Shown here: piece by piece, positions 51,181 through 53,936 of the stretch
Numbering within the stretch: position 1 is the first letter of the stretch
How the letters are laid out: every line of letters starts with the position of its first letter
Source of the DNA: an uncultured Sphingomonas sp.
GTDB lineage: Bacteria > Pseudomonadota > Alphaproteobacteria > Sphingomonadales > Sphingomonadaceae
Reading direction: 5' to 3'
Assembly: GCF_937871615.1 (NCBI RefSeq)
Contig: NZ_CALMPA010000020.1
Location: 62,001 to 126,000, forward strand
Length of the DNA: 64,000 bases
Position numbers and translations under genes: made by a program
The notes under the pieces: generated by a model
What the model was told of the DNA's origin: nothing
Databases searched by the model: none
Seen by the model: only the letters and a program-made list of their open reading frames with translations

Positions 51181-51915
51181 ATGCCATCACTAGATAAACC
51201 GGAAGGCCAGGGCCTTCCCGTCACCACCACCGTCAAATGGCGCTTTCCTGCCGTTCATCCCGAGGGGCAGAAATTCGTCGCGATCGCGTTCGCGCTCACG
51301 CTGTTGCTGACGATCCTTTCCAATATCTTTTTCTGGCCGATGCTTGGGCTCACTGTGTGGGTCGCGGCATTCTTCCGCGATCCGGTGCGTACCACGCCGC
51401 GCGGCGACGATCTGGTCGTCGCCCCCGCCGACGGGCTGATAACGATGATCCAGCGCGTGCCGGTGCCGCGTGAACTGGTTGGCGAGCTTGGCACCGATCC
51501 GATGGTGCGGGTGTCGATCTTCATGTCGGTGTTCGACGTGCATATCAATCGCGCCCCGATCGCCGGAACGATCAGGCAGGTCGTCTATATTTCGGGCAAA
51601 TTCCTCAACGCGGATCTCGACAAGGCGTCTGAAGACAATGAGCGCCAGCATTTCGTGGTCGAGGGGCATGACGGCCGCCGCGTCGGCTTCACGCAGATCG
51701 CCGGGCTGGTTGCGCGCCGTATCGTCGGTTTCGCCAAGGTGGGCGATATCGTCACCGTGGGGCAGCGTGTCGGGCTGATTCGCTTCGGCAGCCGCGTCGA
51801 TGTCTTCCTGCCCGACGGGTGCGAGCCGCAGGTCGCGCTCGGCCAGCGCTCGGTTGCCGGGGAGACGGTGATCGGCCGCTATGGCGTTTCGGCTGTTACC
51901 GGGATCGCGCAATGA
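51181..51915 (+). CDS. psd: Phosphatidylserine decarboxylase proenzyme, short type
   Basis: A 244-residue inner-membrane enzyme forming phosphatidylethanolamine. N-terminal hydrophobic anchor (about 28-52), then [24 protein letters not shown] and the self-cleavage site GS in RFGSRVD with Ser204 becoming the pyruvoyl group. This is the short Psd class found in alphaproteobacteria and archaea. It is followed after 37 bases by pssA. Confidence 0.94.
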
Positions 51916-51952
51916 CGTTTCTTGCCCCGGCCTCCTGGCGAGGCGCCTTCGG

Positions 51953-52744
51953 ATGAGCTTGCCGCCTCGCCGGTTGCGCGGTTTGCCGCTGCGCGCGGTA
52001 TTGCCCAATGCGGTGACCGCGCTCGGGCTTTGCGCTGGCCTTTCGGGCATCAGGTTCGCCATTTCCGGCTGGTGGGAACTCGCGGTGGCGATGATCCTGC
52101 TGGCGGGCGTGCTCGACGGGCTCGATGGCCGCATCGCCCGCATGGTGCGTGGGCAAAGCCGGTTCGGTGCGGAACTGGATTCGCTGGCGGACGCGATTTC
52201 GTTCGGCGTTTCGCCCGCACTCATCCTCTATCTCTGGTCGCTCTCCGCGTTGCCGCGTTTCGGCTGGACGGCGGCGTTGATGCTGGCGGTGTTCTGCGCG
52301 CTCCGCCTCGCGCGCTTCAACGCGAATATTGATGTGGCGGAACAACCCCATAAGTCGGCGGGCTTCCTCACCGGGGTGCCCGCGCCGGCTGGCGCGGGGT
52401 TGGCCCTGCTGCCGATGTTCCTGTGGTTCTGGACCGGGGAGCCGCTGCTGCGCTCCCCTTATATCGTCGCGCCATGGACCGCGCTGGTGGCGGTGTTGAT
52501 GGTTTCGAGTCTGGCGACTTACTCTTGGGGGTCGTTGCGTTTGCGCCGGAACATCCGGTTCGAGGCGCTGGCCGTGGTGGTGATCTTCGGCGCGGCGGCG
52601 ATTTCCGCGCCGTGGCACGCCCTTACCGCCTTGTGCGGCGCCTATCTGCTAGCGATCCCGTTCAGCATGGCGAGCTACGCGCGCGTCAGGCGGCTGCGCG
52701 CCACGATGCCGCCGATCGATCCCGAGGTGTCGCCTGAGGTCTGA
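51953..52744 (+). CDS. pssA: Phosphatidylserine synthase (CDP-alcohol transferase)
   Basis: A 263-residue membrane protein. CDP-alcohol motif DGLDGRIARMVRGQSRFGAE with the later LDSLAD, Asp55 to Asp80, in the pattern D-G-x2-A-R-x8-G-x3-D-x3-D. Several hydrophobic helices follow. With psd and cdsA it makes the PE branch. Its 3' end overlaps the convergent SOS-linked gene by 59 bases. Confidence 0.94.
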   Translation: MSLPPRRLRGLPLRAVLPNAVTALGLCAGLSGIRFAISGWWELAVAMILLAGVLDGLDGRIARMVRGQSRFGAELDSLADAISFGVSPALILYLWSLSALPRFGWTAALMLAVFCALRLARFNANIDVAEQPHKSAGFLTGVPAPAGAGLALLPMFLWFWTGEPLLRSPYIVAPWTALVAVLMVSSLATYSWGSLRLRRNIRFEALAVVVIFGAAAISAPWHALTALCGAYLLAIPFSMASYARVRRLRATMPPIDPEVSPEV

Positions 52745-52919
52745 CCCGGATGCGGCGCTCTCCTCGCGCCATTTCGGGGGCGGGGACGAACGGCATCGGC
52801 GACTGCCCGATCAGGGCGAGCCGGATCCTGTGCAGGTTCGGCCCGACCGTTTCGGCGATGGCATAGGCCGAAATGCCCAGCGCGGCGCCAAACGTCGCGA
52901 TTGCGAGCAGAAACATCAT
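52686..52919 (-). CDS. Small single-pass membrane protein behind tandem SOS boxes
   Basis: A 77-residue protein: hydrophobic N-terminus (about 2-22) predicted to span the membrane, then an amphipathic stretch with RIRLALIG and a basic, Pro/Arg-rich tail (about 50-77). AGGAGG lies 5 bases before the ATG at 52919; a second ATG follows at once. Two perfect GTTC-N7-GTTC boxes lie 64-102 bases upstream. Known SOS-induced small membrane proteins such as Caulobacter SidA inhibit division; that role here is only inferred. The 3' end overlaps pssA by 59 bases. Confidence 0.75.
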   Translation of the reverse strand: MMFLLAIATFGAALGISAYAIAETVGPNLHRIRLALIGQSPMPFVPAPEMARGERRIRVRPQATPRDRSAASWRAAA

Positions 52920-52982
52920 CTTCGCCTCCTGTCCGGTCGGCGTGCCTGGCGGCGCGTGGACCCGTTCACGTGCTGGAGGGGT

Positions 52983-52997
52983 GTTCGCCCTCCGTTC
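52983..52997 (-). promoter_or_regulatory. LexA (SOS) box, downstream member of a tandem pair
   Basis: GTTC-GCCCTCC-GTTC on the plus strand, a perfect GTTC-N7-GTTC. Together with 53007-53021 it forms a tandem pair, with box starts 24 bases apart. It would cover the start of the transcript of the small membrane gene. Confidence 0.6.
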
Positions 52998-53006
52998 TCG
53001 TGATAT

Positions 53007-53021
53007 GTTCCATATATGTTC
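53007..53021 (-). promoter_or_regulatory. LexA (SOS) box, upstream member of a tandem pair
   Basis: GTTC-CATATAT-GTTC, a perfect box with an AT-rich core as in typical alphaproteobacterial operators. It lies 5 bases after a minus-strand -35 TTGACG (53032-53027). With a 17-base spacer the -10 would be AACATA (53009-53004), weak but within the operator. Confidence 0.75.
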
Positions 53022-53036
53022 CGGCGCGTCAAGCGA

Positions 53037-53168: not shown

Positions 53169-53936
53169 ATGGCGGCACCCGTCGTCACCATGCAGCAGCT
53201 CATCGAAACCGGCGCGCACTTCGGCCACCAGACTCACCGCTGGAACCCGAAGATGAAGCCCTACATCTTCGGTGACCGTAACGGCGTCCACATCATCGAC
53301 CTGTCGCAGACCGTGCCGCTGTTCGCGCGCGCGCTGGAATTCGTCTCGTCGACCGTTGCCGCTGGCGGCAAAGTTCTGTTCGTCGGCACCAAGCGCCAGG
53401 CGCAGGAGCCGATCGCCGATTGCGCGCGTCGCGCCGGCCAGCATTTCGTCAACCACCGCTGGCTGGGCGGTATGCTCACCAACTGGAAGACGATCTCGAA
53501 CTCGATCAAGCGTCTCAAGAGCCTTGAGGAGCAGCTCTCGGGCAACACCGCCGGCCTCACCAAGAAGGAAGTGCTCCAGCTCACCCGCGAGCGCGACAAG
53601 CTCGAGCTGTCGCTCGGCGGCATCCGCGACATGGGCGGCATCCCGGACGTGATGTTCGTGATCGACGCCAACAAGGAGGAGCTGGCGATCAAGGAAGCCA
53701 ATACGCTTGGCATCCCGGTCGTCGCGATCCTCGATTCGAACGTGTCGCCGGACGGCATCGCCTTCCCGGTGCCCGCGAACGACGACGCGAGCCGCGCGAT
53801 CCGCTTGTATTGCGAAGCGGTGGCGATCGCCTCCACGCGCGGCAATCAGGAGCAGCAGCGCCGTGGCGGCGCCGATATCGGCGCCATGGCGGAGCCGCCG
53901 GTCGAGCAGGCGGTGGCTGTCGAAGCTGAAGCGTAA
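53169..53936 (+). CDS. rpsB: 30S ribosomal protein S2
   Basis: A 255-residue S2. [22 protein letters not shown] start, [17 protein letters not shown], and PVVAILDSN are standard. A low-complexity acidic/Ala tail after about residue 230 is common in alphaproteobacteria. GGAAAGG precedes the ATG. First of the rpsB-tsf-pyrH-frr set. Confidence 0.98.

Follow-up and report, generated by a model that had tools for sequence, protein, structure and literature searches.

What does a 77-codon frame do behind two LexA-type boxes, in the space between pssA and rpsB of a sphingomonad? We analyzed a 64,000-nucleotide stretch of DNA from an uncultured Sphingomonas sp. (the window), whose minus strand carries this frame. 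An earlier note, made from the letters alone, had proposed an SOS-induced membrane protein and a candidate SidA-like division inhibitor. The sequence bears out its description of the locus: two perfect GTTC-N7-GTTC boxes with starts 24 nt apart, TTGACG beside them on the minus strand, and a single-pass protein frame with an AGGAGG ribosome-binding site (Table 1). The leader, counted from the first box to the start codon, is 87 nt long, and the rpsB start lies 148 nt from the edge of the nearer box. We found no description of the gene in the open-access full-text literature searched.

At its 3' end the small gene runs antisense into pssA, and the sequence indicates that the two genes share constraint over this overlap. 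The small-gene codons for RAAA and the stop sit opposite pssA codons for VRRLR, in a phase kept in many relatives.

Table 1. Features of the small gene and its surroundings, in window coordinates
Feature	Position	Strand	Basis or remark
-35 element TTGACG	53027..53032	-	sequence; TTGAC placement in orthologues
Promoter-proximal LexA operator GTTCCATATATGTTC (GAACATATATGGAAC on the gene strand)	53007..53021	-	predicted; in the -35/-10 spacer
Presumed -10 region	53002..53010	-	presumed from the ATA that comes after the second GAAC half site
Second predicted LexA operator GTTCGCCCTCCGTTC	52983..52997	-	24 nt further along the gene strand than the first
Ribosome-binding site AGGAGG	52925..52930	-	sequence; 5 nt ahead of the ATG
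Gene for the 77-aa single-pass membrane protein	52686..52919	-	ATG at 52919, stop 52688-52686; protein ends in WRAAA
Overlap of the small gene 3' end with pssA	52686..52744	opposite strands	antisense to pssA (+)
pssA, convergent neighbour	51881..52744	+	longest frame; name from the earlier note
rpsB, divergent neighbour	53169..53936	+	name from the earlier note and strong conservation

Operator and promoter of the small gene

The LexA motif published for Caulobacter is GTTCN7GTTC (PMC12700426). The same box precedes lexA and recA in the genome of the window, in agreement with the claim that it is the LexA operator. On contig C46, lexA (183733-184392, minus strand) has two overlapping boxes directly upstream (184410 and 184421) and recA (132250, plus strand) has one (132107); radA (TIGR00416, above cut-off) also lies behind a box. 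By position, we take GTTC-N7-GTTC as the LexA operator of this organism. The genome holds 115 such boxes against 40 for a reversed control pattern, so perhaps a third of the plain matches are chance. Of 86 distinct boxes that we examined, 44 were flagged as lying within long frames, since chance would be expected to produce matches there; both lexA boxes received this flag as well, because of an opposite-strand frame.

LexA boxes in this genome also precede three ImuA-like genes, none of which reaches the NF033429 cut-off, and two SRAP genes (PF02586), at loci L153, L169, L190, L032 and L168. During anaerobic growth of Sphingopyxis granuli TFA, lexA, recA, radA and dinG rise together, and the same rise takes in two imuA-dnaE2 sets and SRAP genes (PMC6472365). 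Another box (L043:1501) stands 52 nt ahead of an acyl-carrier-protein-like frame and may be a chance match. A 70-aa transmembrane frame with a C-terminal hydrophobic stretch (L160:2632-2841, equal to C38:46931-47140) begins 34 nt downstream of where a consensus LexA box starts. We considered it as a rival SOS inhibitor and rejected it, having found no relative in 60 other genomes.

The earlier note had called chance boxes unlikely on account of their number and spacing. Box counts in the window are not decisive by themselves: its three boxes compare with an expectation of 1.36, and three were reached in 14 of 100 shuffles. Conservation carries the claim instead. A perfect box stood upstream in 25 of 25 orthologues of a first set, identified by protein similarity and with the upstream region available; these loci lie beside rpsB, each with one or more boxes no more than 183 nt from the start. 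The box recurred in all 28 kept loci of a second set, from a profile search, and within 260 nt of the start in 79/79 Sphingomonas-type loci of a third set with upstream sequence. Single-base shuffling of the third set left a box in a mean of 0.46 loci, and spacings from 3 to 11 other than 7 gave at most 15 of 79. Since the box is conserved in 79/79 loci against 0.46 by shuffling, chance boxes are practically excluded.

These three sets overlap and share genomes (for example, L201 is L003 and L210 is L007), and five weak loci were dropped before counting. Four of these lacked rpsB or pssA, three with internal stops or short pieces (L025, L027 and L030) and one with a longer unrelated frame (L029); the fifth (L088) was a piece of a longer frame with an internal stop. 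Contig ends cut two further loci (L014 and L266) ahead of the promoter. For the first set, tblastn led to 30 fetched loci, 26 kept and 4 dropped, plus 3 match rows without a locus. The profile search matched 53 of 298 family genomes, with 29 new loci, 28 of them kept. Six weaker profile rows were also fetched: L147 to L150 were kept, and L151 and L152 were not. L152 is a false match; L151 is a probable relative with a 170-aa frame and no perfect box. The third set came from scanning GTDB contigs with one conserved peptide (86 relatives, 80 kept, 77 of these titled Sphingomonas), and since that peptide is absent from the window protein, the set represents cousins of that protein. It takes in loci of the type strains S. 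dokdonensis DSM 21029 and S. adhaesiva DSM 7418. In the pools of 156 and 78 used below, about 20 orthologues were found through a box at rpsB, which is circular for box counts, and were left out of the 25/25, 28/28 and 79/79.

The boxes also hold a fixed place relative to a -35 element. TTGAC precedes the box by 1 to 9 nt in 79/79 loci of the third set and by 1 to 16 nt in 151 of the 156 pooled orthologues, the gap being 4, 5 or 6 nt in 140; the remaining five have their box arranged differently. An ATA follows the box in 92 of the 151 with the standard layout. In the window, the box at 53007-53021 would presumably lie between -35 and -10, and the second box about at the transcription start. 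Of the 79 loci, 27 have at least two boxes, with 24 of the spacings at 21 to 24 nt; tandem boxes are common, not universal. SOS control of the small gene is highly probable.

Three loci of one genus (L147-L149) have a degraded in-promoter operator and a LexA box of opposite orientation directly 5' of TTGAC. This looks like operator turnover with control apparently retained.

The protein and its range

We compared codons of the first 55 positions, which lie ahead of the pssA overlap, since the earlier note had made the reality of the gene hang on conservation outside it. The median dN/dS was 0.07 (range, 0.01 to 0.6; 225 overlapping pairs, none above 1), and 28 disjoint pairs gave 0.02 to 0.5; the pairs were picked at 70 to 98% identity and dS of 0.15 to 1.5, and choosing similar pairs lowers the value. 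The 77-codon frame is a real gene under purifying selection.

AlphaFold placed a helix at residues 2-36 (block pLDDT, 89-98), followed by a disordered tail (58-67). Conservation along the helix, from 50 sequences of the later pool (alignment A2; alignment A1 holds 24 of the 26 first-set orthologues), is periodic at 97 degrees per residue, with p = 0.005 for residues 3-36 and p = 0.038 for residues 3-26. Prominent conserved residues are F10, A13, A/S17, I21, T24, I32, A35 and L36. One face of the helix is constrained, as in helix packing on a partner. The tail carries on average +9.4 and -3.0 charges in 78 members, and the N terminus is nearly uncharged. By the positive-inside rule, a basic segment stays cytoplasmic, and charge alone would place the tail inside and the N terminus outside. 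Searches for known relatives gave no Pfam family for 24 members, no NCBIfam match for the window protein, and eight rows in a PDB-sequence profile search, with a best E value of 0.34.

The protein ends in Ala-Ala in 73 of 78 orthologues and in Ala in 77 (members of this pool with a GTG start were translated from the following ATG, which shortened L099). Shuffling residues 21 onward gave a mean of 3.0 and a maximum of 12 Ala-Ala ends, against the 73 observed. The last codons are antisense to a frame in pssA phase in most of 69 orthologues examined, and the Ala-Ala conservation is partly confounded by this frame. Seven members, in which the opposite frame is missing or has its end outside, are free of it (L023, L083, L085, L087, L089, L101 and L112), and they end, in that order, in AAA, EAA, FAA, IAA, RVA, EAA and AAA, that is, six in -AA and one in -VA. 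The genome's own tmRNA tag, ANDNEALAIAA, has the same Ala-Ala end as the small protein. The likeliest reading is a built-in tmRNA-like end that ClpXP or a protease like it would read.

We then mapped the gene across genomes. With tblastn, 28 of 61 genomes gave matches, all within the genus (28 of 37, the window's own included) and none in the 24 genomes of other families. By profile or position, the small gene occurs in 34 genera. Walking from rpsB in 30 family genomes (13 with a profile match and 17 without) revealed a box and short frame in 22, under a filter that required an N-terminal hydrophobic stretch in the short frame after the box. The gene was at rpsB in 12 of the 17 genomes without a profile match and absent there in 4, and a contig end cut the remaining one. 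Of the eight genomes lacking it at rpsB, three, all of one genus, keep it beside pssA with a box; in L101, box and short frame lie farther from rpsB. Part of the Sphingomonadaceae thus seems to be without the gene at rpsB.

Outside the family, none of 22 rpsB loci from other families of the order had a box (from 24 genomes queried, of which 2 gave no match; two of the 22 loci are cut short). A class-wide profile search matched 7 of 289 genomes, with no convincing member beyond the family: two matches were of the same genus, and the five others were partial and marginal (E, 0.006 to 0.009). The profile misses members within the family, with no match in G074, where the gene is present by position, so absence outside the family is unproven.

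Candidate function and its rivals

The reading that we favor, at a probability of about 0.6, is an SOS-induced, self-clearing membrane division inhibitor, like SidA in its working and not by homology. LexA on the operator between -35 and -10 would keep the promoter off. Upon DNA damage, RecA would become active and LexA would be cleaved, and the protein of about 77 residues would be made. Its N-terminal helix (residues 2-36) would insert so that the N terminus faces outward and the basic tail stays cytoplasmic, and the one conserved face would dock on a partner in the membrane, most likely the late divisome (FtsW/FtsI/FtsN), so that septum synthesis would pause. With its tmRNA-tag-like Ala-Ala end the protein would be short-lived, probably through ClpXP, and once LexA was back and the inhibitor cleared, division would resume. 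Of the earlier claim of an SOS membrane protein in sphingomonads, the conserved gene and its LexA-type operator have stood; the likeness to SidA would be one of working only.

Small membrane inhibitors of division are short and have one transmembrane helix, as does this protein. SidA, DidA and YneA are such damage-induced inhibitors; YneA and SidA act on FtsW and DidA on FtsN, and for ChiZ and SosA an FtsW contact is predicted only, at low confidence (PMC4211646 and PMC13396833). SidA of Caulobacter crescentus, which is LexA controlled, sits in the inner membrane and binds FtsW, is likewise a small membrane protein of an alphaproteobacterium behind a GTTC-N7-GTTC operator. At 29 aa (PMC4211646) it differs from the sphingomonad protein of about 77 aa with its basic tail and Ala-Ala end, and we do not claim membership in its family. 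DidA, also of Caulobacter, is likewise a small membrane protein induced by DNA damage and acts through FtsN; its description as SOS independent (same source) sets it apart from a gene with LexA operators.

YneA (Bacillus), ChiZ (Mycobacterium) and SosA (Staphylococcus) share the induction by damage and the small size, and the transmembrane helix of YneA targets FtsW (PMC13396833). YneA and ChiZ have a LysM domain, whereas the sphingomonad tail is basic, predicted to be cytoplasmic and free of recognized domains (no LysM or other Pfam match among 24 members). SulA of gammaproteobacteria would resemble it in role, as an SOS-induced, short-lived division inhibitor, if our reading is right. SulA acts on FtsZ, however, and the window protein matches no NCBIfam model, in a library that includes SulA models.

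The open-access literature that we searched holds no description of how sphingomonads stop division after DNA damage, and one conserved gene with a clear promoter makes damage arrest in this group a tractable question. If true, the inhibitor reading would add a different architecture, with a basic, probably cytoplasmic tail and an Ala-Ala end, to the damage-induced membrane inhibitors, for which convergence on septal wall synthesis is the emerging picture.

An SOS-induced membrane protein could also act elsewhere than on division, in envelope maintenance, in membrane-linked repair or as a protease adaptor. Small membrane proteins induced in the SOS response could in many cases have other roles, this one has no homology to anything of known function in the Pfam, NCBIfam and PDB profile searches, and a basic tail with Ala-Ala could deliver a partner to a protease. 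We nevertheless regard this alternative as unlikely. Screening 86 of the 115 boxes brought up no better candidate for an SOS division inhibitor, which weighs weakly against it, and the sole other short transmembrane frame noticed, the 70-aa frame at L160, had no relative in 60 genomes.

A membrane toxin of the TisB kind, whose helix would depolarize the membrane and send damaged cells into dormancy, is a distinctly unlikely account. TisB-type toxins are likewise LexA-controlled small hydrophobic proteins, and a single conserved helix face would also fit self-association. TisB is roughly 29 aa long, though, and a constrained sequence of about 77 aa that includes a long basic tail is unlike it. 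Nor did we find a conserved structured leader (fold z mean, -0.16; 40 leaders).

We give very little credence to the boxes serving rpsB, with the minus-strand frame as a bystander. They do share one intergenic region with rpsB, but the TTGAC ahead of the box points at the small gene in 151/156, and the small frame is under purifying selection. In L147-L149, L083 and L089, moreover, no rpsB was found in the fetched locus and a box still stands ahead of the small gene. Ribosomal protein S2 is not known to belong to the SOS genes. That chance boxes precede a spurious frame opposite pssA is next to impossible: three boxes in 64 kb are within chance and part of the frame overlaps pssA, but both box and frame are conserved among relatives.

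Candidate DnaA boxes in the leaders

The leaders between box and start have a median length of 146 nt (n = 153) and diverge fast. In an unbiased word count, TTATCCACA, the classical DnaA box, was enriched above all other 9-mers (gene strand of 20 leaders). Exact copies on either strand occur in 24 of 105 nonredundant leaders, against 0.03 to 0.05 by dinucleotide shuffling, and there are 26 occurrences in 12.8 kb of leader versus 3 in 333 kb of flank, all three within 170 nt 5' of a leader. The leaders that bear it are spread over 10 genera (for example, L017, L022, L082, L091 and L102, as well as L104, L113, L150 and L269). This distribution suggests that DnaA may control this SOS gene in some members of the family, which would link replication initiation directly to the damage checkpoint there.

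The window gene's own leader has no TTATCCACA, and its genome shows no excess, with 8 exact copies against 10 for a reversed control. Validation of the DnaA reading has failed so far. We hold only tentatively, as a doubtful extension of the inhibitor reading, that the gene is a family-wide, twice-gated division checkpoint in which LexA represses, DnaA boxes in the leaders of many members read replication initiation and the Ala-Ala end of a cytoplasmic tail sets a short lifetime.

Within the same genome, a 1.1-kb intergenic gap holds two exact copies of TTATCCACA 194 nt apart (L286:2464 and L286:2658). The neighbors of this gap that we tested are not the usual origin genes.

A hairpin at the ribosome-binding site (GTTCGC...GCGAAC) is attractive in some leaders. 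We rejected it as a family feature because stem sequences vary and the fold z mean is -0.16 (40 leaders, single-base shuffles); 62 of 67 leaders allow stems of at least 5 pairs, with varied sequences. Two shorter words were also enriched. TGGTTAA, presumably a CtrA half site, occurs in 13 of 105 leaders against 0.9 by shuffling; this is far less enriched than the DnaA box, and we do not claim CtrA control. The other word, GGAACCT, occurs in 19 of 105 leaders against 1.4 by shuffling.
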